Of a stretch of DNA of 64,000 nucleotides, positions 2,921 through 39,700 are shown piece by piece. The notes below the pieces were generated by a model, which was given only the letters and a program-made list of their open reading frames with translations, was not told the DNA's origin and ran no database searches. Source of the DNA: Amphibalanus amphitrite (taxonomy: Eukaryota > Arthropoda > Thecostraca > Balanomorpha > Balanidae); contig NW_024881669.1 in the NCBI RefSeq assembly GCF_019059575.1, positions 124,001 through 188,000 of the forward strand, in the 5' to 3' direction. Every line of letters begins with the position of its first letter. The first letter of the stretch is position 1. The translations under genes were made by a program, and so were the position numbers.

Positions 2921-5900
2921 TCACTCGGCGCCAAACTTGGCCATTTTGTTGTTGAGCGGTCCCTTCATGAACCGGTCGCTGGCCATGTAAGCTTTGATGG
3001 GTTCCAGCTCCTCGAAGCGCTTCATGAACTTGGTGAGGTTGTCGTGCGCCTCAACCAGCGTGGCATCCAGCAGTTTGTGCTGGTCCAGCAGCTCGTACAT
3101 GACGAAATCGACCACCGTCAGCTGACGGGGCAGGGAACACGGTCAGAGCCCAGAGGGAACACGGTCAGAGGGAACACGGTCAGAGCCCAGAGGGAACGCG
3201 GTCAGCTGACGGTCAGCGGAAACACGGTCAGCTGCTGGAGGGGTAGGGAACACGGTCAGCGGAAACACGGTCAGCTGGCGAGGGAGGGAACACAGTCAGA
3301 GGGAACACGGTCAGAAGAAACGCGGTCCGAGAGAACACGGTCAGCTGGCGGGGGAACACTGTCAGCAGGCTGGAGAAGGAACGCGGTCAGAGAACACGGT
3401 CAGCCAACACTATATGCGATATGCATAGGCAACGGAGTACCGACACTCGCAATTACCCTATCGTGGACCGGCAGTTCGAAACACAGAAACGACGAACCTA
3501 CTGGCTTTCGGCTCTGATCCACATGCAGAAAGAAGTTCTGGTATAAAGTATCTATGCTTGCTCATCTGTGCGTTCTAATTCGACAGCATGCCCGTTGTCT
3601 ATTATCTGTCAGCCGTTTCGTGCCAGCGACACGCATCAATTCGTGATGCAGCATTATTTCAGCCCCCATATGCAATGGTCACAAAGTGCTGGTCACTTTC
3701 GTCAATGGAGGTCATCATGGTCTGCCTGCTCTGAGCCAATCGCTCAAACACTCACAAACAATCACAAAGAGTGAACAGAAAGTATCATACACGACGAATT
3801 ACAGTGGCGGACCACGTGAACCTCATTTTGATCATCTAACTGTATACATTCACGATGAATTCGAACCCGTTACCACGATTTGGTCATTGACCATCACACA
3901 CAAACAAATGGGGATTAATCAGACAATATTTGCCAGTCATCCTGACTGTCATGACGGCCGCAGCTGGCATCAATTGGGGCTAATTTTATTGACACTAGGA
4001 GCGACCAGCAGGGAGTCAATGAGGAGGTATTCGGTCTAATTGTCCTTAGCGAAAACTAAAACAGCAACGAGAGGCACATTAGCCCGGTCAATGGGCACAT
4101 TCAGCGATTGCCCGACGATGTGCAGGTGCAACCTCCAGACTTCGTAAATGTCCGAGATTCTGCTACGAAATAACGTGGCTAATTAGGCAGACAGAAAGCC
4201 GGCCTTAGCCTAAGGGCGAACTCACGTTCTCTCCGGCGAACCACTGTCTGTCTCCGAGAAACTTGGAGAACTTGGCGATCACGTCCTTGACCGACTTCAG
4301 GTAGCCTTCCTTCATGTCGTCCTGCAAAGGAAGGAGATCGGAAACCCGGTCAAACTTTGGAATACACACTCCTTTACCGCTTGCGAGCTGTTATACTTGC
4401 ATACAAGTTCGAAATTTGACGCGCTTTTTGTAATAAGCTGTAAATCATGTGCTGCTCCGGGCAGGTAAATTTCCGTGAAATGTTAACCTATATCTAAATG
4501 ATGCTTTATGTAACCAACTTCATCGATAGATCACCAACGAACCGCATAAAAATATTGGTTATTCCCTGTATCCACACGAAACAAATCTACCTCACATATC
4601 CCAGATGTAATCAGCCGTAATCGAGAAGATTGACATTTTAAATCGATATTGACATCCATCTCCGCTGATCTCTCCTCGTTATGTCTATTGTTCCGAAAAA
4701 CGTCTCTCAGAGCTGAGACAAGCTGTCTCGCCTCCCCGGCCAACTCACAAAGTTGGGATTGTAGCAGAGGCGCACCCAGCCGTTGCGGAAGTCCATCGCC
4801 TGGTTCTCCATGATGTCGACGCGGACACGCTCCTGCTCCGTCTTGCCGAGCAGGTCGTGCTTGCGGCCGATGTAGCGCATGATGGCATTGCTCTGGGTGA
4901 CGCCCACGTCGCCGTCCATCAGGTAGGGCAGCTGTCCGAGAACCACGCAGTCAGAGAGGGACAAACCAGGAATCAGCGGGTACAGGGACGATCAGTCTGG
5001 GGCATACGTAAGAGGCAGCACCGGCGGCCGCTAGTCAGAGTGTCTTTTGTCTCCTGACAAAAGACTTGATGAGATTGGGCCCGCTGCCGAAATCTAAGTC
5101 ACACGTGGCTTCAGCACCCCTACCGATCCTGGTTTGGCCCGCGTCGAGCCTGATGAGCCGCCGTTTTACGTTACTTCATGTTCCTTCAAACGCATACAAC
5201 GAAGTAGCGGACGTAGCGGGAATGGTTCGGATGTAGCGGAAACAGTTCATCAGCGGGAACGATTCGGGATGAGAACGCATAATGACGGATGAGGTCGCAT
5301 CCCAGCCAGCAATTCGCTTGGGCTGAACTGTGGCAAACGTTGGGCAGCTTGGGCTTAGCTTGGGTTTGCCCACTTTGATCAAAACCAATGCATTTTTTAC
5401 TAGGGCTGAGCTGGGGCATGCCGCAGCTATGCCCAAGTGCGGATAGCAGTAGCTCAGCCCGACATCTGCCCGCGCATCCAAAACAGGCTTAACTTGGGCG
5501 GAGCGCGGGCTGATCAAGCTGGCTGTGTCCTTCGGCTAATTGGAGTAAAGCCGGAGCTTAGCCATACTTGTTCGGCTGTTCGCGCATGCGCAGCTCTGCG
5601 CCAATCATGTGCAGCGTTTGTGACAGTCTGTGCGCTGTGCGACGAAACGACACACCGGTGTTGGGGTATTTGGTGGTTGATGTTTGGGCGCGTGTGACAG
5701 CGCGAAGAAGGGATAGTGCTCACTGCTCTTATCACGTGGACTGGCATGGAGTTTTACGGTAGGTAAGTGTATTGAATGGTGCGCTTGATCGTATGTAAAC
5801 GTCATGATTTTGACTGAGTTTCACGCCATCAAACATGAAGCTGAATAGCTGTTCAGCCTGGCGATTTATACCCTCGCTCAGAAAAGCCGCATTCCGTGCC

Positions 5901-8900
5901 TTCATATCTTTGTGAAATACCAGCACTTCTGAACCAGGAAAATGAAATACAAAACACAAATATTTATCTACTTATCACCGAGCACGCTCATTCTCTGTCC
6001 GCGTTGAAAATCGAATGATCATTTTATACGGATCAGTGAGAAGTGCTTTTACAGTATTAATGCAACAATAAGTTATTTTTCAAGCAAACATGCAATGTAA
6101 ATTAAACCAATTAATCTCTTTTTCAGGTACGTACCATTAGAGCAAATGGTTCCAAAAAAAAAAAAATGGAATAGTTATACAAACCAGGACCGGGTGGACG
6201 CCGCAGTCGCCCTCGCCAAGTGGTTTAGCGGAAACTGCCTGCTTATAATTAAGTAGGTAGGTATACCTACATTATACTGAAACTGCGCCGAAAGCTGGCC
6301 GACCACCTACTGCAGATGTGTATATGTGTGGAGGAGCCAGACGCTTCCAAAGCTCCCATTCACCAGAGTAAAATTCCTTATAAACGATTGTTTGCTAATT
6401 GCTTTATGTCTTATGAGCGATTACTTGCTGTCCTTTATGCTTTCGGTTGAGTGTTCAACCAAGTATTATGAACGGGGAAGGAGGCTAGCGGGCCTTTGAT
6501 TGTTTTATAGTTTTGATGGCGCTTTTTCATGACTCATGTCATATTATTGCTGCAGTTTGCACTCCACTGTTTCATGTATTTGTGTTTCATTTGAGTGTCT
6601 GTAGTCGTTTATAATATACATTCACTATCAAAGTCAACCACTACTTTCCTTTCGCAATGCTCGATGACCGGTTAACCCGGCAGTTGCTGGGGTATTTCGC
6701 CACCCACCGTTTGCTGGGGGGGGGGGGGGGCGTTAAACGCCCCCAGCCGATAACTCGAGAACCAATAGGCGCAGCGAAACGCACGAGGCGGCAAACGAAA
6801 GAACGCGACGAGACGCTTCAGATGAGTACTTTAAAGTTGAATTTTGAGGTCACAGGTCAGGTCAAGGTCAGGTCAAACACCTGAAATCGGGCTTTCAGTA
6901 GCATGGACTTCAGGACTTCGCAATGGGCGCCTCTCGTCATAAACTCTGTCAAAACGGTGCACAATCCATCATATAAGGCCTACAAGAGTGTCAGCTCCAT
7001 GCAGGGGTCAGTCAAGCATAGGTCAGGGTCAAGGTCAGGTCAACCGGGCAGGCACATATCCCCGAAAATAAAAACTGATATTCGCAGCCTGTGACACATG
7101 TTTTATGGGTAATTTGGGGCGTAGAACACGATGGTGACATTCATTTTATCATATGTGTACGTGTTTGGCTAAAAAAGTTCAATTTAAGAAATTCATGTAT
7201 CATGGTCGTGAAGTAGTCACGAGAAATTGCCAAGATTCAGTTCAAGATTTTGGAAAATGCGGAACGATAATCAATAATCGAAGATAGCCATTTGATTCTC
7301 CATGGTATTGGCAGTCTAATGGCGTTTACGGCATGTCTATATGTTTATTCTGTGATTTTATATGATTTTTTGAACATATGCCGTTTTTGGTCGAAAACTC
7401 AGAAATCATGATGCACTAAAACCTCGATATCTCAAACATTTTCCGACCGATTTTTTTGAAACTTTGTCACAATAAACTTCAGTTAATTCCCTACAGGTAC
7501 CCAAAATTTGGCGCGCCTGCGGCGCGCCGTTTTTATGCTATGGCCCGGCGAAAAAAGTGGGGGCGTTTAACGCCCCCCCCCCCCCCCCAGCAACTCGCGG
7601 GTTAACAGAGCATATGAGTGACCGTAACAATTTTAAATATGCATTGAAACCGCACAACCTGCTGAAAGTGCATTGGCTGCTCCTTGCTACTTGATCCAGT
7701 GTGAAGCAAATGCAAGATGAAGTCAAGTCGAGACTTGAGAAAACAGGAGCCGTCACTCGAGCCGATTAAGTCGGGATAGACAGGGCACACAGAGTGGGCT
7801 TGCCGGAGTTCAGCCCGCTCGGGCCCAGAGTAATCTCCATTATATAAATGGATTCACTGCTCGGGCTTAAATCGGGCTAACGCCAATCGTCGCTCAACTA
7901 GGGCTAAACTACGGCTGTCCGGAGCTCGCAGAGCGGGCATACCTCCGGCAGAGCATGGGCTTTAGTCGGCGTTTTTGTGTCATACGCCGACTTTAGCCCA
8001 AGCCCTAGCCGACTTTAGCCCGACTAAAAATCTCGGGCAATCCGCACTTGAGCCTGCTTGGGCCCGGAGCAAAATTGCTGGCTGGGATATTGACCTGACG
8101 TCGATAGTTGGTTGGGCCCTAGGGTTCAGCGCATTTATAGACACTGCGGTTGATCGGACATGTCAGTTGCTTGCCATTAGGGGTACCTACTGGAAATCGA
8201 TAAAAGCAACTCTGACCACTTTGGAGTTCTATAGCCTTGGCCACCCCATCTGAAGCGGACAAACGGAACAGAACTGTCCGCACGAACGCACGATCTCTCC
8301 CGATTAACGTAAAGGCAGCGACAATTTTACATGAACTTGATTTGGGAGGACCCAGATTTGACCTCGGGTGGTAAAGTTGGGTACCATTAGATTCATCACT
8401 TCCTGAAGAATCTGTTAGCTTTTCATTAAAAGCTTTATCTCAATTGCAAACAGAAGAACTCAGCAGCCACCATCCCCATCCATTATGGAGTGGTGAAATG
8501 GCAAGTGCAGGCAGGAACTAAGGGGTTCATGGACAGGCCTAAGGCATTTACAGCAGGCCAGGCCCCTCAGCACTACTTGGTTGAGTCTTATATTGGGCCC
8601 CATCACATTTTGAAAGGGCTGTTTTGGAACCTATATGCTCTGGTTTGGACAGTGCTGGTCAACACTGCACAACATTTGCAATCCATAGTGTGATGTGACC
8701 CAATCAAAGCCAACTGTACATAGGTACTTACATTGGGGAAGTCCAGCTTCAGTTTTTCTTTGATATCAAACCAGCATGACTTGTCATAGTCTGGGGCAGG
8801 GCCACACTCAAACTTCTTGTCTTCATATTTCTCCCCCGTGTACTCCAACAAAAGGCGAATTGGCTGGGCGAGCTGAAAAATAGACAGGTTATTATTATCA

Positions 8901-9469
8901 TTATTGTTCCAGAATATTCTGCAAACTGGATTGTTTCAAAACATGAAAACTTCATTTGGGAAATTCTTGGAAATGCATGGTACAATTAGGAAAGACAAAA
9001 TGCAAATAAAATAAAAGCATGCATGAAGTTGAGACTGTTGAGAGACAACATACATGGAGCCACCATGATTGTGATAAGAGAAAATGTGACATATCAGATA
9101 TTCAGCAAATTAATCATAAGAATCAAGGGTAAATAATAACAATAGGTCCAGAATCCTGTTACTAGCCATCACACACCACAGCCTACAATTTGCATAAGGA
9201 AAGAGCCCGATTGTCTTCATACCATTCAACAAATCTTCACAAATCACATCACCCAGCAAAGAGCAGCTCAAAATAGCCCCCTCCCCCCAAACAATGCTTG
9301 CAGAAGAAAGAACGAAAGTGACATAAATCAGTCATTCACAGCATGAGGCCTTGGCATGAGGCTTCAGTTGGGATTCGAAAGCTGGTGTATTTGATATTGA
9401 TACACATTATCACAGGGTACAAGCGGTATAATTACATACCCCACGAATATTCCAGTATGCCAGCTCCAT
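2921..9469 (-). CDS. mu-class glutathione S-transferase, five coding exons
   Basis: This cytosolic detoxification enzyme joins glutathione to electrophiles. Minus-strand exons are 9440-9469, 8732-8872, 4749-4931, 4226-4321 and 2921-3121. All junctions are GT-AG and phase 0, and they join into 216 aa against about 218 for the family. The start MELAYWNIRG carries the mu-class Tyr and WNIRG motif. Exon 2 (residues 11-57) holds the mu-loop region and ends in LDFPN. Exon 3 (58-118) contains the glutathione-binding TQSNAI motif. The last exon has the helix-capping VVDF and ends KMAKFGAE then TGA. Intron 2 (3.8 kb) holds a nested transposon pair, and the last intron's acceptor is embedded in a minisatellite. 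The 30-bp first exon is supported by the family match MELAYWNIRG then LAQPIRLLL across the junction. Family assignment is secure; substrate is not inferable. Confidence 0.95.
3112..3410 (-). repeat. minisatellite on the acceptor of GST exon 5
   Basis: About 16 irregular copies of a roughly 15-bp unit (plus strand GGGAACACGGTCAG) run directly into the 3' splice site of the last GST exon. In gene orientation the unit reads CTGACCGTGTTCCC, and its CTGACSGT core also matches the first bases of the exon (CTGACGGT). The array supplies many CAG trinucleotides next to short pyrimidine stretches. Confidence 0.8.
5301..8086. mobile_element. DNA transposon with CCCAGCCAGCAATT ends in GST intron 2
   Basis: The ends are inverted: CCCAGCCAGCAATT at the left, and the same sequence as reverse complement ending at 8086. 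Both ends continue into sequence rich in GGGCTA and GGGCCC-like words (5301-5560 and 7790-8086). The superfamily is uncertain; the dinucleotide AT flanks both sides. A plus-strand stretch at about 6150-6240 reads PKKKKWNSYTNQDRVDAAVA, which loosely resembles a helix-turn-helix DNA-binding start, so a transposase remnant is possible but weak. A TTAA-flanked MITE is nested inside at 6676-7601. Confidence 0.65.
6676..7601. mobile_element. piggyBac-type MITE with TTAA target duplication
   Basis: TTAA lies directly outside both ends (6672-6675 and 7602-7605). The ends are near-inverted: CCCGGCAGTTGCTGGGG at the left and CCCGCGAGTTGCTGGGG as the reverse complement at the right. Long G or C runs follow each end and there is no coding capacity. 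Inside are clustered AGGTCA half-sites at about 6843-6878 and 7005-7050. CCC-starting ends with a TTAA duplication point to the piggyBac superfamily. Confidence 0.75.
8087..8731. other. remainder of GST intron 2
   Basis: Ordinary intron sequence between the transposon end and exon 2. No feature recognised. Confidence 0.5.
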
Positions 9470-12486: not shown

Positions 12487-12621
12487 GCTCCGCCCTCCCG
12501 TCCCCTCTCAGCCCGTCCCTCGATCTGACACCTCCGCCCCCCCCCCCCCCGCCCCTCCCGGCCCGTTCCTCCGTCCGACACCGCTCTCCGTCCTGCCGCC
12601 CCTCCACACCGCCCCAGCCGT

Positions 12622-12766
12622 CTCACTCGTCCCAGCGGATGTCAGCCGGCTCACTCGTCCCAGCGGATGTCAGCACGGCTCACTCGTCCCAGCGGATGTC
12701 AGCGCGGCTCACTCGTCCCGCGGATGTCAGCACGGCTCACTCGTCCCAGCGGATGTCAGCACGGCC
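12622..12766 (-). repeat. 28-bp array over the PIX coding end
   Basis: Five tandem copies of a roughly 28-bp unit (plus strand CTCACTCGTCCCAGCGGATG plus TCAGCACGG). The innermost copy is coding: it specifies ADIRWDE and the stop codon. Each copy repeats GACGAGTGAGC in gene orientation, which can be read as Glu-stop or as a donor GA|GTGAGC. Confidence 0.9.
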
Positions 12767-15700
12767 GGCCAGCAGGTGCGTGCGCACGATGGTCTCCAGG
12801 TGCTGTCGGCGGCGCCGCTCGTCGTCCAGCCGGTCGCGCAGCTGGCGCACCTCGTCCCGGAGCTGCTGCACGCTCTCCATCAGACGCTCCTCCTGCGGGG
12901 CGGGCACGGCCGGGCCGGCGCCGGCGGCCAGCGCCGCCAGGGCGGCCGCCGCCGACACCCCGCCGCCGGAGCCGGAGCCGCCCGGCTGCTGCTGTTGCTC
13001 CTCGGGGATGGAGTGCGGCGGGTCCAGCAGCGCTGGAGCGGGGACAGCGAAAGGTGTGTGAGGTCCTTGGTACGACAGGTCCAGCAGGGATGGGGAGGAG
13101 GGTGACGGGAGATGTTCGTCACGAACTCTGGGGTTCTCCATGCCGGACCACCGGCTGTCCTAACGGAGGTATGGACAATCACACCAAAGCTACATACTGA
13201 GTACACTGGCTAGCGTACTCAGTACGCTAACCAGCGTACATAGCGTGGGTCTAAAGGCCGCACCTGCACCTCCTATCCTGTCATCCAATTAAACGCAGCA
13301 GCACAAATCTTATCAATAAAATTTAAATAATTCTCCTTGAAAGCAGTGTGAGGTGTGCTGTCAGTGTCCGGATACCAACATTCCCTAGAAGCCTACGATA
13401 TGGAGGGATCGCGGGGGTCGCTGATAGCCAGAACACTCACAAGAGTTGACGGTGTGCCGCGGCTGGGAGCTGGTGCAGTAGGCCTCGATCACACGCAGAA
13501 TCGTGGCGTCATCCTCGTATGAACGGTCATCGCCTGCTGACAAAAATAACAGACTCATATACTGAACAAATCGCCCAACTGAACAACTCGTCGGACTCTG
13601 AACCGATCACACAGACGTCTCACCGTATAAATCACATACTGCGCACCGACACTAAACAAATCACATTCAGTTCTCACTGCAGACAAATCACACCCTGTTC
13701 TCAGTGCAGACAAATCATCCCCATCCCACGCCAGAATAAATCCCGCCGGGGTCGGCGCCGTCGGTGCCAAACGGTTGGCCGACGGCCGTGTCCCAAAGTG
13801 GCGACATCAAACAAATGGGGGCCCAGAGGCCAGATGTCTCCAACAGCGTCACGTCCAGACGCGACGGTTATACCGATGCCATGGACGGCTCCCAAAAGCA
13901 GCGACGATCAGTCGGCGGCGGCAGATCCAAACCGGCGTCAGTCATGGCTCTATTCAGTACCCACAGCCGTATGGAGGCATGGTACCGATAGTAATAAAGC
14001 ACACAGGGATGCACGCACACACCACTCACGTACTGTTTCCGCGAGAGAGCGCGAAGAGCGTCGCCACCTACAATATACCTACCTCGCTTCTTGTACTTGT
14101 AGACCATGTTCCTGCTGCTCTTTCGGTTGGTATCCTCCCGTCCGAGCGCCAGGCAGGGCCGCAGCGGCGGCGAGGGTCGCAGGCAGGCCGCCGTCCAGGG
14201 TCGCAGCGGGCCGGGCGCACTCGAGACACCCACCTCGCTGACGGGCGCGTGGTGCGGCGGTGGCGGCGGAGCCACCTGGGGCGACCACCGGGCGGAGGTC
14301 AGACGCGGGCACACGAGTGCTGGTCAGCGAGAACCATGTGACGTGATGTTATAAAGCTCTGATAAACTTTGGGAAATTATCCAGAGGTGTCGACTGCTGA
14401 CGGCAGACGTTTGTCAAGCAGTGCATTAATCCACTTGAAATGTGGTATAAGAAATGATACCGTAGCAGCGCACTGGTAACTGTTTTGTCCTAAAACTATG
14501 TAGTAAAGTAAACCAATTATGCACAATATGTCAACCCCAAAACAAAAGCAGACAAACGGTTACTGTTAACCACAAAGTAAGGGCTAAGCGCTGTTCAGTA
14601 CAATGATGGCTACTGACAACGAGCTGATGTTAGCCACGCCAGGTAATAAGAGTGCAGTGAGAAGGGAAACAGCAGCAAGTCGGCACAAAACAGATCTACA
14701 CACTAAACCAAAGCCACTACACACGCTAATTCAATATAAAACATCGATACGGAGGGCCTGCTCAAACAAGCGAAACTACACCAAATATGAGACATCAAAA
14801 GACGACAGGTCAGCCGCTAGAGGGTATCGCACACAGCGGTGAGCCGGCGGTAGCTAATGGCCGGGCCAGCGCGCGTTCTGAGGCGCTGTGGAGGCGGCGG
14901 CGGCGGCCGGGCGCGGCGGCACTGCCTCAGTCTGCCGTACGGAGCGTGCGGGGCGGGCAGGCGGGCGGGCGAGCAGCACACCACACGGCGCAGGCAGGCA
15001 GGTTACGGCCGGCGGACGCTTGCCTCTGTCAGTGGTGGCGCGGTCGGGCGCGGCGCCGCAGGTTGGCCGGCTTGGGCGGCGGGCTGGGTCGGCGCGGCTC
15101 CGAGTCCGAGCTGGAGGCCGCCGTGACGGCCGGCCGCGGCCGGGGCGGCGGCGGCGGGCCGGCCGGCGCCTCCTCCGAGCCGCTGGAGGCCGAGCGCCAC
15201 TGCTCCAGCGGCGGCGGCCGGGAGTCGGTGCCCGTGCTGGAGCGGCTGGCGGCAGAGAGCGGCGGCGCCCGGCGCGGCCCGTCGGACGGACCGGCCGGCG
15301 GCCGGCCGCTGAACGGAGACCCCACGATCGGCACGGCGCAGTCGTCGGTGCTGGAGGCCGGCTCCGACGGCGAGGACGTCTCGGCGGCGTCCTCCGTGTC
15401 CGGGCCCGGCGCCGCCACCTGGTACCGCCAGCCGCAGTAGCCGCCGGCGCTGGTGCGCACCTCGTCACCGCTCGAGCTGCCGCCGCTACTGCCCAGGCTG
15501 GGCGGCCGGTGCGGCGCCGACGGACCGACCGCGGCGGGCCGGCAGGCAGTCTCCGGAGACCGAGACACGGGCGGCGGGAGGTATGCATGCGGCGGGTACG
15601 GCGTGATGGGCGCCAGGGCCAGCGCGGCGGTCCGGCCGCGGCCGCGGGTGGCCAGCCGGTGCCGCTGCGGCGGCGGACTGCGCAGCCCGGTCCGCTCCAG

Positions 15701-24700: not shown

Positions 24701-27700
24701 ACGAGGCTAAGGCGCACTACAGCCGGGTAGAGCCAGCTTCCGTCAGAGGAGCCGACTGAATAAATAAAGGAACAGCGCGGTAGCACGAGGAACAACACAC
24801 TTGAGAATATCAGCTATCACTACTTAGCTTTTATGATACCATTATCTTCCGCAAAAAAGGTAAAAAAAAAAAAAAAACAGCGGGAAATGGTTGGCTCGAA
24901 CTGATAGCGTTGCCTATAAACTTAAATACAAAGGGCTTGCAATAGCTTCAATTTTCAAGTATTGAAACAACGCACCGCTGCTAGCCATATGTTGACAGCA
25001 GCATCCCCCCTCACCAATCTACCCCTCAGGTCAGCATCAGGGACCGCCCAGTGTCACCGCCACCCGCCTCCGACTGACCTCGTATATGAATGCCGACATC
25101 CGCGGGGAGACGCTGAGCATCACCAGAGTAGTACGGAACAGCACGAAGTAGCGGTCGCTGTGCTCCTTGCCCACCGCCACCGAGCCCATGTGGATGATCT
25201 CACCTGTGGGAAGGTACGCAGGGTCAGACAGGCGGGGACAGACGTATGTGTGTGTGGGGGGGGGAGGGGGAGGGGGGTCATGTCGGTGCAATTAACGGTG
25301 ACACTCTTTCACTGTCTGGGTCTTAGATCACAGAGTGAATGAATATCACCACCGTTCGAGGGTTACTTCGCGACAGCCTGGCGGACTAACGACGGATAAC
25401 TAGAGGACAGAGGGCCAGAGTCAGCGTTAGCTTCCCTGGCGAGCCTAATGACGATACCACCCGGCCCAAGCCATCCTTTCCGGCAGCGCCGGGTTAGCAG
25501 TAGTCGGACCGACCGGCGGTAACGCCGCCCGTGTTATCAGCCGTGCAGCGGGACGGGAGAGTCTCAGCGCGTGGTCAGACGGACGGCGGCACCTCGGCAG
25601 AAGACGCAGGCCGCGGCCACACACGGCGGCCGGCACCCGTTGATCAGCCAGACAGTCGACAAAAAAAAAAAAACACGCAAATAAATAAATACAACGTCGC
25701 CGGCCCGTGCTCGGCAGGACGTCAGCGGATTGGGCATATCCCTGAGCATCAGCGTAGATCGGGGGATGACAACATGCAAACTCAGTTCCATTCACGTGAG
25801 AAGATTAGCACTGAATAACGTATGGCTTTGAGCGTTCATACCGAGATATTGTGTTGTTCGTAGATGCCATCAGTTATGCCATCAGCGATCGCCGTTCCGG
25901 ATATCCCTCCGCTGAGGTCAATACCAAGCAGCGCGGATCGGGCGCCGGCCAATACGTCCATTCAGAGCGCCGGTCCATCTGTTCTCCATATAGGGCGCCG
26001 CACAGCACTAATGGGATAACCCGATTCAAAGGGATTCCAGACAGGGATACCGGGACAGATCTCGGGTAATTTCGGGCTGTGACGCCTCGCTGGGTGGTGA
26101 CACTGAGGTGAGGTGACCGGCCGGGGTAGACCGGTCGGCCCGGGGCGGCCGTCTGTGCCCGCCGCCGACCGGTGCCAGCCGCGGCGGCGCGGCGGTTCCG
26201 CCCGGAGCCACCGTTTCCGGCCGACGGACATGTTCCTGGCGCCGTCACCGGTTCCCGCAGACACGGCTCGACCTCCACCACACCCGGGCGCAGAGCGGCG
26301 CCCGTGCCAGCGCCGTCGGCCGGGGGTGACGGCCGCCACCCGGCCGGCCGTGTCGGTCACAGCTGGGACGACTGACGGCTGACGGCGGCGGTGAGAGGGA
26401 CAGGATAACCACAGTCCGCGACACGGACGGACTAACGCCGAGACAGGCCGAGTAGGGCAAAGCCAGCAAGACAGACTGCCCGGACAGGCCGTAAAGACAT
26501 GCTGCCGAGACGGGCGGTGGAGAACAGACAGCTCATTGGAGACAGACTACGGTGACAGGCCGAGCGGAGAACAGAGCTCCCAGCCAGTGTCGGTCACGGT
26601 GGGGGCAATCCGTCACCCGGCCGACGCGCCAGTCTCTTTTGTTCGCCGGCACGTGTCAAAAACAAAGCCAAAACTCTGAGTGGCTGAGGAGAGGAGCTCG
26701 GAGCGAGCACCAGTTAGGACACGGTCACCGCGCTGCGTCACGCCTCCGCGCAGTTCAAGTATCTGCTACAGTGGCACGTGTCTGTACTCTGTAGGTCAGA
26801 CGTCTGTCAGATCAACTCGACACACGACACCGGCCCGCTCCGATACTATTCCGAGCACAGATATCTCATCAGCACTCCGCGGCCTCCGGCTCCCGTGAAG
26901 GAAGCACGGCGGGCCTTTCTGTCGTCCCATTCCGTCCGGGCCGGCCCGGCGGCGGCTCAGAGACCGTCATATCACAGCGGCCGAGACGAGATCACGCTCT
27001 GTAAGACGCCGGTCGGGTCCGTCCAAAGACGGCTGTGTGATTGGCGCGGTCGGGCGCGCTTCGGAGCGAGGGATTCCGCGGATCTGCCCTTATGGGCTAC
27101 ATAGGCAGCTATTTCCAGGAGGCAGGTCGATCCAAACTCCGTCGTCACTTGGGAGCCGCGTGGGTGTTTTCGAGAAGACGCCGCTTTGGGTTCGGAGATA
27201 AATCACCCAGACGTCTTAATGAAAGACTATGATTTAATTCAGAGACAGGGGCCACACGACTGGGCCATGCATGAATGGTATTAATTAGTAAATAATTTAT
27301 GCAGACCCAATAAAGATCCGGGACCACAGCCAGCTGATATGCCGAATACAAACAGAGACGTGGTGGGACGTCCCCGTCGGCCGCTCCGTTTGGCCGAGCG
27401 CCCAGCCTGTCCAGACCAGAGCACTCCGCTCGGCCTGTCTGACCCAGGACGCCGCGCCCAGAGCGACGCCCCCGGCCTGTCCGACCCAGGGGCACGAACC
27501 AGCACGCCCCGCCAGGCCCGTCTGACCCAGGACGCGGCCGCTGCCCTTCAGCCGAGTGTCATCCCCGGGCTGTGACCTTTCCCGAGCACTCTCGTCTGGC
27601 TCTGGCGATGATGGGCTGCCGCGGACCGCCCACCGGAGCTGGGGACCGGCAGCAGCCCGATTGGGGACGGGAGCGGGAGGCAGCGAGAGGTCCAGGGGAC

Positions 27701-30700
27701 GGGATAAATGACAGAGGTCACGGAGTTGTTTATCGGTGTTTGGTCTGGACTCTGGAGTGCATAATGCACTAGAAGGAAGTCGTGCAAAATGATAGCTAGC
27801 AATCCATCATGATGTTAGAATGTCACGTCCATGTCTTGGCTAAGCCTTTCCAATCAGGACGAAAACGTGTGCTCGAACTCACAATGCTATAAAATACCAA
27901 TTGACCTAAGCACAATTATATAATATATTCGATTATCACCGTCTTTCTGATGAAATGTCGGTCAACTCTCTAAACCAATTAGGAACGCTGCGAGGATGAG
28001 TTAGTGACCTTGTGCCTTTCTATTATGACGAAATGCGAGTGTCAAGGCGGAATGCCAGCTGGAATCTTTTCACAACTATTAGGTAGCAGGGATGCGGAGC
28101 CGTGGAAATTTCAGACAGCTTAGGCTCCGGCTCCGGCTTCGGAGAAATAAGATCGGCTCCGGCTACGGCTCTGGCTCCGGGTGAAATGTCATGGCGGCTC
28201 CGTCTTCGGCTCCGGCTCCGGGCAAAAATGTGCCGACTCCAGCGGCTCCGGCTCCGGTTCCGCACCCCTGACTATATTAGGATTGTAAAAAGGGGCCACC
28301 AGTCCGTCTGAGGCTGGCTCTGGACTCGACCTAAGGTCCAGGACCCAGTTCCGTGTCAGTGTCAGGTCCGAGGTCAGTCTAAATGTCCGTCGATGATCGT
28401 CCCCATTACCCGGCTCGACGCCCCGCGGCGAAGGATCGACGTCAGCTGTCATCGTCACGAGTCACCGACCGGCGCGCGGCGCCCCATCGAAATCGGACCC
28501 CGGCCGAGGGTAGAGCAGAGGCGGCGACAGGGAGAGGGAGGGAGAAGCGAGCGAGGGGCGGGGTCGATAAGGCAGACACCGGCTCCCGTCCGCCGGGGGG
28601 GGGGGGGGGGGTTGCTCGCGCCCCGTCCCCCGAACAGTCGGCGGAGTAAGCGGGAGTCGTTTCCGGGTCTCACGCACGCGTAAATAAGGCGGACGGAGGC
28701 GGGCGGAGAGCGGAAATGGCCGCGGTAAACTGCCCAAATGGCCCATATCACACACCGCAGAGCTACCGTCCGGAAACGGGGAGAGGTAGGAAATAAATCA
28801 CTCATACAGAAGACCGAATGAAATCGAAGGAGGTAAGAATGAACCTCAGATGGTCAAGGGACGCTCAATAATCGATTAAGTAGGAAAGGTACGGGAACGA
28901 CTGAAACACGATCGACTGACTGAAGAATGCAATAAAGCTTGCCGGTGTGATGGGAACTGCTTTTGTTTGTTTGGGAGCGCAGTGATTCGTGTCCCAGTGG
29001 GTCATACCGTCCCCCCGTTCGTCAGTCAATAAGGACAATTACTGCGTTCCGTCAGCTACTCCCCCCTCCGTTCTGTCAGCTTTGATCGCTCCTACGCTCC
29101 GTCAGCCCTAATCAGATTGCTCTGACGCACACTGCCCAATATGCTGAGTGAAGTGTGTTGACCAGCCCCGTACGCGGACACTGGTTACACATCCGCAGCG
29201 TAAATGCCAAATGACGGCCCGGCCTGGCGAGCAGCTGCGAACGCACTGGGCCGCACTGGGCTCAGACTGCTGCAAGGCTATATAAACCAGGTAGAACGTT
29301 CCCGACGAAAAAGTGGTGACAAGCGATAATTAGTAGCCGCGACCCTCACTTGTTCAAAACTATATCCGCAAGCAGCATTTACAGGCTAGCGGAAATCGAC
29401 CAATCGGCGTTCGGCAATACTCGACGCTGATTGGCCCGATGCTCGTGACGAAATTGCGGGGGACTGTAGCTATTCCCCTATGGCGTTTAATAGACTTACG
29501 GCTTTTGAAGGGGATTTATACCAGTTTTGTTGGGTTTGAGGCCATTTTTGAGCTTGGATATTCTTTCTGTGACTTTTGACTGTGTAATAACGACATTTAA
29601 TCATGACATTCTATATACTACCGGTGTCACATCGGCCAAAAAGACCGTAAGTACATGGGATAGACGGACCACTGCTGATGGGGCCACACATGTCGGCGTG
29701 TGGTCATCGGAGGTCCGTGAGGGTTCGACATAGACCCTTCATGGGTCGGTATAGGCCCGGTGGGTCCAGTGTGCAAGCCTATCGGGGGCCGGTGCTGACC
29801 CAACAGGGCCCAGTGGCATATAATGTAAGGCTGTCTAGGCCGACGTTGAGGGCTCATGGGGGCCATATAGGACCAATAGGGACCACATCAGTCAATCAGG
29901 GGCCATTTAGGCCAATAAAGGCACTTCAGGGGACTTGAAAAGGTCATTCAAGAGCTGTGGTGGGCCCATGAGGGGACGGCATTGGTCCAGCAGGTGCAGT
30001 CAGGGGATGTTGTACGGGTTTCTCAGTGGCCCATTTGGGCATATCAGTGACCAATTTGGACCCAGCAGAGGGCTTTGTAGACCTATCAGGGGCTGGTGAT
30101 GGTTCATCAGGGGCCAGCGTTAGTCCATCGGGGCACGGCATATGCCCATCAGAGGTAATTGCGAGCCCACGCTGAACAATGATGGCCCTTCAACGGCCCC
30201 TAATGGATCTACATTGACCCATGGGCCATGATGTGTCATGTATGCCCCTATGACAGGCCTACTCAGACCCCTGATGGACATTCCCGGCCTCTGATGACCC
30301 TATACTGAATGCTAAAGGGGCTCTAAGTTTCTCCAATAACCCTTCGTCAACCCATTATTACCATACGCTGGCACTAGGGGCCCCACATCAGCCGCAGGGC
30401 AGTCCGTGCCATGACAGCATGTCTTTTCGGCCGATATTACATCGGTAATATTTATTAAAATCATGATTTTATGGTGTCATTATATAGCTAACAGTCATAA
30501 GAAATATATTTCAACTCGAAAACAGCTCCAAACAGCATATAATTTTAAAGAAACTCCTCCGAAATCCAAAAGCCTATTCGGGTCCATAGAGAATAACTGC
30601 GGTCCCCCGCAATTTCGTCACGAGCGTCGGACCAATCAGCGTCGAGTACTGCCGAGCGCTGATTGGTGAATTTTCCGCTAGCGTGTAAGTACTGCTCGCG

Positions 30701-33700
30701 GAACAAGAGTTCGTCGACAATCCTCCACAAACGTCTGTCACCATTTTTCGTAATGCTAAACAGCCGGAGCGTACCCCCCTGGACTGCTGTAACCGGGGGT
30801 TCCGCGCGGCAACTTCGTCCGACAAAGGTCACCATTCCGCTGCCGCTGGTACGGACGTCGGGCACCCGGCTGTTCAACAAGGCGGCCGTCGCGTGCACAG
30901 ATGAAACACACTCAAAGGCTGACGCCCGGCCATAGTTCACGGGCTGCTCGGCCTTTGATATTCCAGCCGGGCTCACAATGAGTCCCTCACCGCGGCAGAT
31001 AGCATCCATCACGGCAAATTCACGGGAAGGCTGCGAAATGAACCGGCTGCCCGACGGACGCAGTCTAGCGCGACCCGTGACCTTTCGGGACCGGAGACCT
31101 TTTGACCTTTTGTAATTTCGTTATGCTGAATTCAATGCTGATGTGTGGTGTCTGTCTTCCGTGCCGAGTTAGCACTAGTTGGGTGGTTGGTTTATGGATA
31201 CCATTGATAACCTATCGGGACCCAAGCTAATTGAGGCTTACCGGCTTCTCCGAGAGCCAGTCTATATCACAGAGACAGGGTGGTGAGCCGGTACGTACCC
31301 ATGTTGGCCATTTGTTCGCCCTCCCAGCGGCGGATGTTTCCGGAGAGAATCTCCAGCTCCGTCTCCTTCTGGCGACGGATCGTGGCACAGCTCGTCTGAA
31401 ATACACAAACACGGAGACGTCACATTGCTGATGACACAACCCCACAGCAACAGACAAAGTAGTTAAATCCACATCAACAAACGCGCAGCTATAATTCATA
31501 CCGGATATCAGGGCAACTGGCAACATAATTGAAAAGGTAACGGTCGATTTATCATCTATACGCTTTTACGGACAAAGCAACACAAAACAAGGCGATCATC
31601 TCAGTAGCTTTACATCGAGGAATCAGAACTATCATTGCATGATGTGGTTTGAGGCATTTCAGACGCGGTGTCGAGTTTCACACGCAACGAAGACAGCCTG
31701 AAGATGATTTCCAAATTATGTGCAATTAAAAGGTAACACTGTTATAATTGTTGCGATTGAATATATCAAAAAATGTTTGTCTTGACTGTGAACAATAATA
31801 TTCTGGGCAGTACCTAAATAAATCCAAACACAAATGATTGAACACAACAGGGTGTGACAATGATTGAACACAACAGGATGTGACAAACAAGATAGTACAA
31901 TATCAATCATATCTAACAATATCTATGATAATTTTGTATCAATGTATGTACAAAAAGCACGAATACCAAAGCGAAGAGGACACTGATCCACATCAGCTGA
32001 GCTCCATATAGATGCCATTCATTCCCGGAGCCCGTTCCTTAGATAGCTCGGACGCGTCTGATCCACCAACACAAGCCGTCCGGAGACGTCGGCTTTGACG
32101 TCATCAACTTAGAGAGTATTCTCTGACGTCATCAACGCTGGACAGTCGGACGAGAGGTCAATCTCGCCGGACAGCCATCCCTGACGTCATCAACGCCGAA
32201 CAGCTGTCCTGTCCCTTGCGTCATTCACGTCGGACACTAGGTCTAGGTATATCAATGTCGGACAGTGGTCCTGTGACGTCATTAGCCCCTTACAGCCGTC
32301 CCTGACATCCCTGACTGTCCGTCGCCGTCAGACCAAACTCCGGGCAACTCTGGGCAGTCAGCCCGGACGCCGCTACTGACATTCCGGACATAGCTCACAC
32401 GGAGCGTACATTCCGGCCATAATTGCCGCCCCGTTTGACACTATGTGCCCCGGGTATCACAGCGCAGCAGCCCCGGCCGTCCTGCCCGCCGCCGCGCCCG
32501 GCGCCTCAGCCCCATCAGCGCAGTGGCGTGTCCAGAGCGCCATCCGTCATCTCACGGCCCATTGGCGGCCGGTTATCTGGATGGTCGCAGCCACACAGCG
32601 GCGAATTGGGGCGGCGTTCGGCTTGACAGCGTCACACGCTGTGGGCGTCGGATGCGTCGCCTGATTCCGACGGAGGCTGTTTGAGGTAGCTGCGTCGTAG
32701 GTACCGGTATCTGTATTTTCAGGATGCTGCAAACTAATTTGGATACGGGCAATACGAATAACGCCAGGTGGGTATGACATCAGAGCTAGGTCAAGGCCAG
32801 TAACTACTCGGTAATACTCAGACAGTCTGTCTGACCAGCATCTACCGTGATCTCGCTGAAGGACTGTGTAACCTACCGTGATCTCGTTGTAGACGTGGAT
32901 GGAGCGCTGCGTGTCGCCCCGGTCCGGGTGCCCCTACCGTGATCTCTCTTTAGGAGTATATAACGTACCGTGGTCTCGCCGTAGGAGTGTATACCGTACC
33001 GTGATCTCGCCGTAGGAGTGTATAACGTACCGTGATCTCGTTGTAGACGTGGATGGAGCGCTGCGTGTCGCCCCAGTCCGGGTGGCCCTTACCGTGATCT
33101 CGCAGTAGATGCGGACATTTCCGTACCGTGATCTCGTTGTAGACGTGGATAGAGCGCTGCGTGTCGCCCCGGTCCGGGTGCCCCTCCTCCAAGTGACGCT
33201 CGTACTCCTGAAGCATGCCTGCAACAACGGACATGAGCATAAATACCATCTCGAAGAAAGAGCAATGATGTCATATCATTTCATCGCATAAGCCTAGGGC
33301 TGATCGACGATCGTGCTGCATTAAAAATTGCCACCTTTCATGATGTTCAAGTGCAGTAAAATGGATTACACGGCGCTCGCTGGCAGCTTCAATGAGTAGA
33401 GATTCCAGCCGATCAAACAAAATCAGCACTAATCCTCATCCCTTATCACCTTCACAAATCATACATATTGATCATCGGAGCTTCAACCGCGTACGATTGA
33501 TTTCATCTCAATCTATTGCATTTATCGAACAAGAATCTCGCCCTGTATTAATCTGTACAACCACTTCGCTGCATTGATCATCGGTGGCGCATTTTACACT
33601 TTCTCGCGTTGGCAGCTCGCCTTGGCAGACGGGCCGAGACAAAAACGCCGCTGAGGTAGGCAGCCGGCCGCCGGCGGCCGCCCACTCGGCTCGGCTCGGC

Positions 33701-36700
33701 CCGGCGGCGCAGCGCCAACAGAAGGGGCGGTGGGGCGGGGAGGGGGGAGTACGGCTGGACAACATAGAGCGCTGGCTGGGGAGCTGGACGGGATGGGGCG
33801 GGAGTGGGAGTACGGCTGGACAACGCAGTATTGGCTGGGGCGGGAAGGGGGCAGCTGGACAACACAGCATTGGCTGGGGCGGGGGGGGGGGCAGCTGGAC
33901 ATTGGACAACACAGCATTGGGTGGGGCGGGAGGGGGGCAGCTGGACAACACAGCGCTGACTGGGGAGCGGGGCGGGCTGGGCGGGAGGGAGGGAGGGGGG
34001 GCACAGTTGGACAACACAGCGCTAACTGGGGAATGGGGCGGGCTGGAGCGAGAGGGTAGGGAGGGAGGGGACACAGCTGGACAACACAGCAGTGGTAGTG
34101 GGGCGACTGGTGGGAACCAAAGGCTGTCAGAAGTCGTGGATAGACACAGTGGCGACAGCAAGCTAACGCACACAATGGGAGGCAGGGAAACGTAACTGGA
34201 ACGTAGCCAGCTACCAGAGAGTAGAGACACTAGAAAACAACTGAGAACAGGGTTACTAGGGTTACTAACCACATCTAGGCATTCGTACTACACCCAAATT
34301 GTTTGAAACCTGCGAAACACTTATCCATTCGCACCGCATCAAAACTTATAAAACTACCAGGCATCCTACCATCCCATGGCCTTTCAGGGGTCGTAAACAC
34401 GGCGAAACATCCCAGCCATGTTTTACAGGCTGTCAAGAATGGAGCTACTGAGATTTGCCGCGGCTCCAGGACAAATCCCTCCCGGGGCGGACGAAGCCGC
34501 ACCGGCCACTCACATGGGAACTTGTCGAGCCGCCGGAACACCTTGCTCAGACCGGTGGTGAGCACCATGATACCGGGCGTGTGGGCGCCCTGCGACTCCA
34601 TGAACGCGTTCAGGGCGTCCCTGCGGCGGCACAGAAGGTGGAGGGTCAGCGGGCGGCCGCAGTGGGCGGGAACAGCGGGTCAAATGGCTAGCCGCTAGAT
34701 AAATGGACTCACCAAGAATTATATATCGGCTACACAAGCCAGACTACGCACCTACATAACTGCACGTTGCCTCCCTTTGAACATGCCGTATCTCATCAAA
34801 AACAGTCATAAATAGCGAAGAAAACGCATTCGCTCACGGTAACCAATATTTTCGGTCATTTAGCCACCAATAACCAATAAATCGCGCCTGCCCTACCTCT
34901 GTTCCCGACTCCCCAGTCCCCTGTTTACTCTCCTTCCCTGCCCAAGTCTCACTTGTGTTTGTCGAGCACACAGACGGCGCGCGGGTGGCCGGCGCAGTAC
35001 TGAGTGTGCACGCGCTTCAGGTCGGCCGCGCGGCTGAGGAACACGTGGCCGGCGCGCTGCGGGCGCTGCTGAACGGCCGCCTGCAGCTCGAGCTCGGCCA
35101 GCAGTCGGCCGTGCTCACCGAGCACTTCGTCCAGGTTACCGGTCAGCTGGCGGTGCTCGGCTGCCGACAGACTGCAGGGGTATAACACAGGGGTCAGAGT
35201 ACTCCACACAGGGGTCAGAGTACTCCACACAGGGGTCAGGGTACTCCACACGGGGGTCACCGTACAACACACGTGGGTCACAACCTCCTCCAGGCTACCG
35301 GTCAGCTGGCGGTCCTCAGCCGAAGACAGTCTGCCGGGGTGACATCTATCAGGATTATCGCACGAAACATAACCAGTAAGTTTCCTGGACTGGATGGTAC
35401 CGAACAGGGCGCAACAGTCAGTTGTGCGCTTGGCAGTCGAGCTCATGAGGTTCGGAGAAACGGAACCGGTAGGTAAGGTATATGACAAGCAATAGGTAAC
35501 TAGCTTCGGTTGACAAATTTCCATAAATTTGCAAGGTTTCATCTCGTCTACTGACTGTCTTACGTCGTAAGGTTGTAAAGCAGCTTTATTGAACAGCGAC
35601 TGCGGCAAAGTTTACCCAGGTGAGCCCTGTGACTTGGCAACTAGGAGTGGAGCGTTGCACATGAAGCACTTGCCGGAGGGCCGCCAGGAACATACTGTCC
35701 AGCGTAACTTCAGTCGTATTTTGACAAGACGAAGTGTAGCGAACCTTGTATGGAAACTCAGAAAATGCAGAAGCAAAGTTTTGCCGTAAAATACACCGGC
35801 AACTTTTAACGAGATGCCAGAACTGCCGAGCTAAATTTCACCTGGGTACGTGGCAGGCACTTACAACAAATATCGTAGCTCAAAAGAGAACCCTGCGTTA
35901 TGAAGGGCGGAGCTACAATATATGTAATATGCACCCGGATATTGGTTGTCTGTTCCAACCCGCGGCCAACACGGTAAGTCCATATCCAGCAGCCATATAG
36001 GTAGAAAATGTAGGTAAGCGCCGTCGCCACAATCTGCGGACGATGTAGATCCTGAAGTCGCAGTGCCGCAGGACAGGGGCCAGACGAGAGTTAGCTCCCA
36101 GGCCAGTTCCGATGGCCGGCGTCGCTCCAGGCGTCGGACCTCTCTCAAAGCCCGCCTTACCGGACCCGTCTCGTCACTCTCTGAAGAGAAGCGGCGCAAG
36201 GACCTCCTTCTCGACCCCCAGCGAATCAGCTCCGCCCCGTCCCTCCCAGGCGAAACGGCACAAGGTCCTCGGCACACGCACCTCTCTCGGTAAACGGACC
36301 TCTCTCGAGCCCCAGCGGCGAGAGATCCGACAGAAGTCCCTCCCTGGAGTACCTCTCTTTCCCGCCCCGGCTGACCATCCCCAGTCTCCGCTCTAGCCGA
36401 CTCCCCCGGGACACGGACCGTTTCCAGCCGTCCCGGCCGGGCAAATAATGACATTACGGCAATCGCGCCGCGGCGGCTGAGCCGGCCGCTGTGCCCGGGC
36501 GGCTGGCCGGCGACTCGGCCGGGCCGCCCGGCCGGCCGCTAAAAGGTCACAGCGGGAGAGCCGGCACTTCAGCGGGGCTGGCTGAGCTGACACTTCGGTC
36601 AGACTGGCTGGGCAAGAGTGAACGGGTCTGTGGCGGGCCGAGCAGTCAGTTGGATTATTAGATCATCGGATCAATTAAAAGAAACGGCAGATTTTAAAAT

Positions 36701-39700
36701 CACGATCAATAAAGAATGCAGAATCATTAAGACGGGTGTGATTCTGCCGTATCAAATTCATGTTCCCGCCATGCCGATTTACCGAACATTCTCTCCACAC
36801 GTGACCGGTACTCCAGAAGTGTTGTGTTGTTTGACTGACCAAGAACCCAGATAAGACACATCTTATGGACGGCAGGCCTCCGGCGCCTGTATTACCACCC
36901 AGCCTAACTATAGCACCAGAACAATACACCACCAATCCTGGATCGCCACTAATTACACTACCGGACCAATCAGACCGCGGCAGATCACTGAGCGGATGTG
37001 AGCGGACGGGCCCACCGTCGGACCCCGACCGTGCCGGCTCCGGCAGCCGGCTATTGGAGCCACGGACAGTATCTCACCGACCCAACCGTGGCAGTCAATC
37101 GAGCGTGGCCGCGGCGCCGGGCGTGACCGAGTGTCGGGCTGACCTGACCGGCGGCAGGAGTCCGTGAGTGACCCCGCGGCGCCCGGCGGCGGCAGGAGCC
37201 CGTGAGCACCGCCGCGGCGCCGGGCGTGACCGAGTGTCGGGCCGACCTGACCGGCAGCAGGAGTCCGTGAGTGGCCCCCCGGCGCCCGACTGACGGGACG
37301 GGCCGCGGCGCCGGGCGTGACCGAGTGTCGGGCTGACCTGACCGGCGGCAGGAGACCGTGAGTGGCCCCGCGGCGCCCGACGGACGCGACGACCGTCAGC
37401 CGGAATCAATAGTCATAACGCTGACGCCGAACGGTCCGTGTCCGTCCCCGACGGCACATTGAGCAGAGGCGACCGCCACGGCGACACTCATATTGGACAC
37501 GGTCATCCCCGCCCATAGAGTCATCCCAGACATGGATCTGGTTAGAAAAATTAATGGAGTGGAGTCCCAGGCTATTATTTGAAAGAAATGGACCCTACTT
37601 AACAATCCAGACGATGCGAAACTCTTGGATAGCATGAAGTCAAGTCCTTTCATGCGGTCAGGACGGAGTTTTATGTCCCTCTGGCGCAATATGCCGAGCA
37701 GTCGACCGAGTTGCAGGCACCAGCAGCGGCCTTTCGGCTTCTCTCGTGTCGGACATCGAGCCCAGTCATTCGGCCACGCACATCGAGCGAGTAGCGATGA
37801 CACGCGACGCTCCGCAATTCAATCAGACGACCTGCAATGACAGTGGAGACTTCGGCCACGCACAGCGACCGACCAACCTCACAAGACGCTGAACGCGTGT
37901 TCACTGCTCAACAGCCAGTAACACATTGTTGTTTGTTTGTTTGTTGGGGGTTAGGGGCGCGCCGACTACGAGGTCATTTTGCGCCCAAGCCAGTAACACA
38001 CAGCTATAACTCACAGAATGGCATAGGGGGACTTAACTCTCATTACGTCCAAGTGGCTTAGCCGCTGACAAAATGGTCAACCACTTCATCACCTATCGAA
38101 TCGGCCGAATGTTCAATTGTTCGACAACTCATACATCAGAGGGTTTAAATACAGGTTCCGGTTATCGAATATGGGAGCCGCGCTGAATGCGTGCTCAGCT
38201 AATCACGCGTCTCAGTTACTGAATGCATGCTAAGTCGGTGTTCACTGTTCACTCAGTTCAGCTTATCAACCATGGGAGCGCGTCTGAATCCCTGCCCCGG
38301 TGCTCACACGTCTGAGCGGCTGGGTGTATGTTCACTGTTCAGCTACTCACATGCCTGATCGGCTGGGTGTATGTCCACTCAGTTCAGTTACACACAAGTC
38401 TGATCGGCTGGGTGTATGTTCAGTGTTCACTGTTCAGTTACACGTCTGATCGGCTGGGCGTATGTTCACTGTTCCGTTACACGTCTGATCGGCTGGGTGT
38501 ATGTTTACTGTTCAGTTACACGTCTGATCGGCTAGATGTTTGCTCACTGTTCCGTTACTCACACGTCTGATCGGCTGAGCGGCTGGAGGAAGTTTTTGCA
38601 GAGCGTCTGCAGCTCGCTGATGTGGGCGCGCTCCGAGTCGATGATGTCCTGTAGCACCAGAGAGCGGTACACACGCTGCTGGCTGACCAGCTCCATAGGC
38701 GCCGCCGACTGCTGCGACTCTGACGGCCGGGGAACGGGACTGAGTCAGTATGCTGCGACTCTGACGGCGGGGAACGGGAGAGAGTCAGTGGGCTGCGACT
38801 CTGACGGCGGGGGAACGGGACTGAGTCAGTGTACTGCGATTCTGACGGCCGGGGAACGGGGGACAGTCAGTGTGCTGCGACTCTGACGGCAGGGCACGGG
38901 TCAGAAACAGCGCAAGAAAGACGGGACATATGACAGAACAGGGCAAGACGGCAGAATACGCCAGAGCAGCATTAGACGAGGCGCACTTCAGTACACAAAG
39001 CAGGGACAGACGGAACACGTTCGAGACACTGGTGTAGACCCAAGCAGATTCACAAAAAGGAAAACTCGCAACTGCGGACGGATGAGCCCATACGCCAATA
39101 CCGACACAGGCTCGGCTCGAGGCAAGAGGCACGGGTCAGTAGGGGAGAGTGGGGCAAAGCGGCCACCCGGGGCAAAGCGGCCACCCATCGTTTTAGCCCT
39201 TCGTAGCTGGCGTCATTTCCAATTTATGGTTTCCAATTATACTTCTCTTCACCGTCGTTCGAATGAGCTAGACCGGGGTTTCAGGCCCATCACCAGTGTT
39301 CTGTGAAACACGGAAAAGCATTTCTTGCCAGGTTACCAACTATGTTTACAATTTTTAAATGTTATGTTATTCCATAACCGTTTGAATTTTTTTTATAAAC
39401 GTTCTTGTCCATGCATTGCATGGTTATCGTACATGCATTCTACCAATTTTAATGTTTTTTACCCCACTAAAAGCTAAGCTGGAATATTTTTGTCTCGGAC
39501 GGTATGCGCGGGGCAAAGTGGCCGGGGCAAAGTGGCCACCCCCCTATTGGCCATAAGTTGTTTCCATCTGGATAAAAAACATTATTTATATTCAAATGTG
39601 TCGTCATGCATTCATCTTGGCCACTTTTCAGTTGCATGAGTTACCAAATAATGCAAATAAATGTTTTTTTCATGAAAATCCTTTCTTTGTTTACCTACAG

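Follow-up and report, generated by a model that had tools for sequence, protein, structure and literature searches.

Minisatellites at exon edges of the GST and PIX genes in the barnacle Amphibalanus amphitrite

A 64,000-nucleotide stretch of the Amphibalanus amphitrite genome (assembly GCF_019059575.1, contig NW_024881669.1, positions 124,001 to 188,000 of the forward strand; referred to here as the window) carries a mu-class GST gene and a PIX gene of the ARHGEF6/7 type, with minisatellites at or near seven of their exon edges. Copies of the edge, composed of a piece of exon and some of the adjoining intron, are repeated beside the true one, an arrangement known from amphioxus. Splice junctions sampled from other genes in the same genome are duplicated at the rate of intron sequence. 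It is likely, with a probability of about 0.82, that the arrays are ordinary minisatellites whose turnover is tolerated at exon edges, and that no special mechanism is involved.

Minisatellites at seven exon edges

Both genes are encoded on the minus strand. The original prediction, made from the letters of the window, had named the two genes, and matches of the spliced proteins to domains and structures agree with it: the 216-aa GST matches Pfam GST_N and GST_C and mu-class GST structures in the PDB, and a 390-aa fragment of PIX matches Pfam SH3, RhoGEF and PH above cut-off and has 1by1 ('PIX') as its best solved relative in the PDB. Single PIX exons gave RhoGEF matches below the Pfam cut-off. 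Pfam scans of the plus strand of 32001-42000, opposite the coding strand of PIX, and of the minus strand of 22001-32000 returned no matches. The genes and arrays, delimited with Tandem Repeats Finder (TRF) and the scans described below, are as follows.

2926-9462, minus strand: mu-class GST gene, five exons at about 9462-9440, 8872-8732, 4931-4749, 4321-4226 and 3121-2926 (exon translations, GT/AG sites)
3132-3377, minus strand: array by the GST exon 5 acceptor, periods of 15, 22, 37, 40 and 48 bp (TRF, junction scan)
12737-42937, minus strand: PIX (ARHGEF6/7-type) gene, from the SH3 exon at 42937-42745 through the coding end at 12737 (exon translations)
12615-12765, minus strand: array of 5.3 units of 29 bp across the end of the PIX coding sequence (stop codon to 12737) (TRF, junction scan)
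22701-22950, minus strand: PIX exon 9 acceptor (junction 22701) and an array with periods of 36, 58 and 72 bp (TRF, scan)
32877-33127, minus strand: PIX exon 5 donor (33127), then repeated exon 5 ends with GT donor (TRF, sequence, extension)
35171-35340, minus strand: PIX exon 3 acceptor (35171) and a 21-bp array at 35185-35280 (TRF, extension)
38306-38581, minus strand: array over the PIX exon 2 donor (38563), 39-bp unit (TRF, scans)
38710-38905, minus strand: array over the PIX exon 2 acceptor (38719), 41-bp unit (TRF, scan)

The seven edges are thus the exon 5 acceptor of GST and, in PIX, the exon 2 acceptor and donor, the exon 3 acceptor, the exon 5 donor, the exon 9 acceptor and the coding end, and the TRF periods at or near them range from 15 to 81 bp. 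Edges were scanned in 24-bp segments, a junction being counted as duplicated when at least 18 of the 24 bases matched at a lag of 9-500 (thresholds of 17 and 19 were also run), and the exon-side homology of the copies was measured by ungapped extension. Local copies were found at all seven edges, with 8-59 bp of exon in each, close to the 8-60 bp that had been predicted.

The prediction had further described the arrays as having units that include the edge. This stands in so far as every edge has local copies, but a TRF array strictly encloses just three of them, the two edges of PIX exon 2 and the PIX coding end. The other four lie outside, by 11 bp at the GST exon 5 acceptor (junction 3121), where the array begins upstream in the intron, by 14 bp at exon 3, by 45 bp at exon 9 and by 87 bp at the exon 5 donor, and they are joined to their arrays via diverged copies. 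The junction is absent from the 21-bp unit at exon 3; beyond the array, at -159, is a diverged acceptor with 42 bp of exon 3 (17/24).

In the exon 2 acceptor array, the 41-bp unit contains a run rich in pyrimidines, CAG and 8-10 bp of exon, and by their letters these units resemble complete 3' splice sites. At the exon 2 donor, GT is kept in several copies, with 14-19 bp of exon. Copies in the GST array, located by the 24-bp scan at -223 and -153, include some 9 bp of exon and read CAG|CTGAC at the junction. Three extra junction copies with 8 bp of exon accompany the exon 9 acceptor, one of them with AA replacing AG. Downstream of the exon 5 donor are 59-bp exon copies at +96 and +250 and a shorter one at +127, with a 31-bp array at 32935-33040. 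A weak duplicate (18/24), absent from the prediction, was also detected at -57 from the PIX exon 12 acceptor (13032, minus strand).

Copy numbers on a second contig

The assembly comprises 807.6 Mb in 2644 contigs, in which matches to the myosin head, kinesin motor and TCP-1 families are often found in contig pairs, some in more or fewer. A second contig, C517, is collinear with the window in all pieces compared (GST and, in PIX, the coding end, exon 9 and exons 5 to 2). Across exons 2-5, leaving arrays aside, blocks of more than 150 bp are about 86-96% identical between the two. The frequent pairing of gene matches, together with this level of identity at the one locus examined, gives the assembly the appearance of a divergent two-haplotype one. 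Owing to the pairing, C517 is most likely to be the other allele; alternatively, it may represent a recent segmental duplication.

Copy number clearly differs between the window and C517 at five of the seven edges (counts include the true edge and are at 18/24 or better unless stated). The PIX exon 2 acceptor is present in 5 copies in the window and 11 on C517. The exon 3 acceptor has 1 and 3 copies, or 2 and 4 when the diverged copy is counted, and on C517 it is carried, with about 47 bp of exon 3, by 3.5 copies of an array of 143-bp period. At the exon 9 acceptor, 4 copies in the window compare with 1 on C517 (at the looser cut-off of 17 on C517), where the scan gives the true edge alone and TRF no array, one more partial copy being legible. 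Full exon 5 ends number 3 in the window and 1 on C517, the single one being accompanied by 31-bp copies, and the PIX coding end has 5.3 and 2.0-2.3 units, respectively, by TRF. The remaining two edges show no clear difference: counts are 4 and 5 for the exon 2 donor and 3 and 2 for the GST exon 5 acceptor, copies of which are thus present on C517 too, and they depend on the threshold, becoming 6 and 5, and 3 and 4, at 17 or better against each contig's own edge.

Differences of this kind extend to the kinesin genes, four edges of which differ between paired contigs. In the gene on C865 and C975, the donor has 4 and 3 copies and the acceptor 2 and 3. Another acceptor has 3 copies on C789 and 2 on C241, one of them without AG; the fourth edge, an acceptor on C801 and C405, is considered below. 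Because copy numbers differ between contigs, we infer that the arrays change by slippage or unequal exchange, and the slippage that had been proposed as their generator fits.

Several other features were observed in comparing the two versions of the region. PIX exon 9 (15029-22701, minus strand) is open for 2556 codons, starting in the PH domain, with 14.6% Ser, 12.6% Pro and 11.2% Arg; on C517, where residues 1733-2469 were compared, it is open across 733 codons with 90% protein identity. As read from these sequences, it is a giant coding insert in the PIX gene, and probably a disordered one. Inside it is a 33-bp tandem repeat, the period being a multiple of three (16352-16605, minus strand), and the C517 piece has a 33-bp array too (948-1153). 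Fairly AT-rich, unrelated sequence occupies the place of the exon 9 acceptor array on C517, which is longer than the window by an estimated 3.8 kb or so between the places matching 16.5 kb and 33 kb. The C517 match to the first 2000 bases of the window stops at 1597; beyond it, at 1598-2000, is a repeat of which the genome has many other near-identical copies, and whose initial 185 bp occur again at 2554-2738. The repeat at 1598-2738 may be a mobile element confined to the window version of the region. Elsewhere, the chitin-binding cuticle family PF00379 has at least 150 matches above cut-off in the genome, which marks it by content as that of an arthropod; the idea of an amphioxus genome was rejected on this ground.

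Frequency of duplicated junctions

Exon edges had been predicted to be picked by the arrays more often than chance would allow. The stretch 2900-43000 is minisatellite-rich: TRF gives 67 rows for the window, with a coverage of 7.25% overall and 8.4% in this stretch. A separate sample of junctions was taken from exon-level profile hidden Markov model (HMM) matches to the myosin head, kinesin motor and TCP-1 families, picked regardless of arrays. Among the matches listed, 53 of 100 were used for myosin, 48 of 139 for kinesin and 34 of 101 for TCP-1; HMM match ends at most 12 positions from the profile end were excluded as junctions. Placement succeeded for 199 of 226 junctions (148 of 166 in myosin and kinesin genes, 51 of 60 in TCP-1 genes), and the 27 unplaced ones were dropped. 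The sampled sequence amounts to about 206 kb and is gene-centred (177.5 kb and five further regions).

Junctions in this sample are not duplicated in excess: 9 of 199 have local copies at 18/24 or better, with about 9.9 expected (9/148 versus 9.3 for myosin and kinesin, 0/51 versus 0.6 for TCP-1). Nor is there an excess within TRF arrays, which contain 8 of the 199 junctions, compared with 9.1 expected from non-coding coverage and 6.9 ± 2.3 from rotation of the arrays (P(≥8) = 0.37). The result is unchanged on collapsing similar exon ends into 133 clusters, of which 7 are hit at least once (5.75 weighted hits versus 6.32 expected). Along the 148 myosin and kinesin junctions, the duplicated fraction is about 6% at the junction and 5-8% in intron-side bins from 15 to 1000 bp, and falls to 1.6% at 30-60 bp into the exon; in the same sample, TRF arrays cover 0.86% of the sequence inside coding HMM matches and 4.57% of non-coding sequence. 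Exons are thus poor in arrays, and their edges resemble introns. A rate of 15% at junctions is incompatible with the sample (P = 0.0004 for 7/133 clusters); for twice the background rate, P is 0.026 with 6 clusters and 0.055 with 7 of 133.

Several points weigh against the view that exon edges receive no more arrays than introns do. In the window itself, where 29 junctions (21 in PIX, 8 in GST) and the PIX stop were tested and 11.1% of intron positions remote from junctions are duplicated at 18/24 or better, 6 of 29 junctions are duplicated and 3.2 expected (P = 0.09), above expectation and not significant; these are the PIX acceptors a2, a9 and a12, the PIX donors d2 and d5 and the GST acceptor a5. 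At the other thresholds the counts are 7/29 versus 4.2 (17 or better, P = 0.12) and 4/29 versus 2.6 (19 or better, P = 0.27). These window counts are biased upward, because PIX and GST were the genes that drew attention; even so, there may be an excess specific to the two genes. In the sample, the most conservative count (7/133 clusters) excludes twice the background rate no more than marginally, and a modest excess at junctions, below about twofold, may exist. The sample represents three conserved gene families, with splice sites placed by a simple scoring rule. At the fourth kinesin edge mentioned above, with 6 copies on C801 and 2 on C405, the acceptor on C405 seems to have been placed about one repeat unit away from the site matching the partner contig. 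Finally, raw identity of the extra copies to the true copy, at the six splice edges of PIX and GST, is 93.6% for the splice dinucleotides and 78.4% for other bases, as would suit copies maintained for splicing.

The last of these figures is misleading, because it sets the centre of the copies against their rim and counts related copies repeatedly. The signal is gone when distinct changes per central column are counted, and raw dinucleotide conservation was dropped as an indicator of selection. Within the central 14 bases at ten edges, variation is seen in 7 of the 20 splice columns and 36 of the 120 others (Fisher P = 0.79), with 0.35 and 0.36 variants per column, respectively. Splice columns thus vary like their neighbours, and there is no sign of spare splice sites being selected or maintained.

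Counterparts, origin and significance

The original prediction knew of no earlier account of such arrays, but the phenomenon has been described: passages of two papers on amphioxus (PMC3087553, PMC3902484) refer to tandem arrays of exon-intron boundaries as 'mirages' and credit their original description to Canestro 2002. According to these passages, the genes affected include Adh3, BflGb6, TnC and PGBD5; units are 10-72 bp long in Adh3 and 150-160 bp in BflGb6; BflGb6 has 6 or 3 copies depending on the haplotype; the Adh3 mirages are somatically unstable; regular splicing is suggested to proceed without interference; and a model of intron gain is derived from the arrays.

To judge from the same passages, mirages and the GST and PIX arrays have in common tandem units across an acceptor or donor, with both 5' and 3' boundaries affected. 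Exon and some intron are present in the copies at the seven window edges (one of them the coding end) and at several kinesin edges; copy number varies between haplotypes at five window edges, provided that C517 is the other allele, and does so in the amphioxus accounts likewise; and AG or GT is retained in many copies though not in all (39 of the 48 distinct extra ones at ten edges), as is reported for amphioxus. The GST, PIX and kinesin arrays are therefore of the mirage type, a known phenomenon, here in an arthropod and thus in another phylum. Two further differences concern the evidence: the effect on mRNA was examined in amphioxus, whereas the barnacle arrays are known from genomic sequence alone, and the rate at junctions was set here against an intron background, a comparison that does not appear in the amphioxus passages.

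No arthropod case was met among titles and abstract openings of the literature on splice-site and exon-boundary minisatellites, most subscription papers lying outside that coverage; the entries included a paper on a prawn lectin whose repeats are coding (PMC7536079). A word search of barnacle genome papers for 'tandem repeat', or for 'tandem' or 'minisatellite', gave nothing. Zhuo 2007 and Gao and Lynch 2009 reportedly, going by their titles, deal with introns arising from tandem arrays or internal gene duplication. Such work would concern new introns made from tandem copies, whereas here existing introns have acquired extra copies of their boundaries. Internal tandem repeats are also described, in the part of PMC2812944 available, as altering the structure of human duplicated genes; the likeness is that minisatellite expansion changes gene structure and varies between copies, the difference that those genes are paralogs in segmental duplications and the changes apparently not centred on splice boundaries.

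The preferred explanation, tolerated turnover of ordinary minisatellites, would operate as follows. Minisatellites, abundant in this stretch, would grow and shrink via slippage or unequal exchange, and the duplicated segment would at times span an exon edge. A duplication wholly within an exon would usually harm the protein and be removed by purifying selection, as suggested by the depletion of arrays in exons. One that spans an edge would leave an intact edge in place and supply additional splice sites, most of them unused, toward the intron; it would thus be tolerated about as well as an intronic duplication, and the equal rates at edges and in introns argue for the survival of such arrays. 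The copy joined to the intact exon is presumably the one spliced. The expected outcome would be extra junction copies with 8-59 bp of exon, in numbers that vary between contigs.

Among other explanations, splice junctions could themselves be tandem-duplication hotspots, with slippage during replication or repair at AG/GT boundaries anchoring the arrays there. The raised count in the window would suit this, as would the kinesin gene on C865 and C975, which has copies at both its acceptor and its donor; however, neither the junction counts nor the TRF overlaps nor the clustered counts of the sampled genes show an excess, and the tests of doubled and 15% rates restrict what such a hotspot could contribute, so that we regard it as unlikely. 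Selection for redundant splice sites, which the original prediction had suggested, might instead be at work, whether as insurance or for alternative splicing. Retention of AG or GT in most of the distinct extra copies and the higher raw identity at splice dinucleotides are in its favour, but splice columns are as variable as other central columns, and copy number is unstable between contigs, to the point that the exon 9 array is undetected by TRF on C517; selection for spare sites is accordingly a very improbable account.

The arrays could also be a route by which introns are gained or slide, duplicated stretches of exon with splice sites turning into new introns or shifting an existing boundary. 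The raw material is present, the units being composed of an acceptor or donor with exon; passages of the amphioxus globin paper (PMC3087553) propose a model of this kind, and the abstract of PMC2891723 puts forward tandem duplication as the origin of some novel introns in Drosophila. No new intron was identified in the window, however, and by eye the exon-attached copy is at the same place on both contigs for PIX exons 2, 3 and 5, which speaks against sliding; this route is rather doubtful as the explanation of the arrays. Last, the assembler may have invented or misplaced repeat copies, repeat arrays being error-prone in assembly. Arrays of the same unit families are found on two contigs in the PIX, GST and kinesin genes, and since the same edges have different copy numbers on C517, a simple artefact is hardly credible.

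A bolder extension of tolerated turnover, which we hold only tentatively and think will more probably fail, is that the turnover of arrays keeps replacing the exon edge that is used and gives rise to alternative splice sites specific to an allele, with about 1 in 25 junctions having copy-number-variable local duplicates that differ between alleles. If true, it would provide a standing source of boundary shifts, that is, of intron sliding, that could be watched within a population.

Boundary-spanning minisatellites thus exist beyond amphioxus, and within a single assembly they differ from one version of a gene to the other. Their rate in the sampled genes is that expected if exon edges pose no obstacle to minisatellite turnover, so that a striking pattern has been made measurable and a special mechanism is not needed to account for it. 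With some 4% of sampled junctions as a baseline and a divergent two-haplotype assembly, this barnacle would allow direct tests of spare-site use and of intron sliding.

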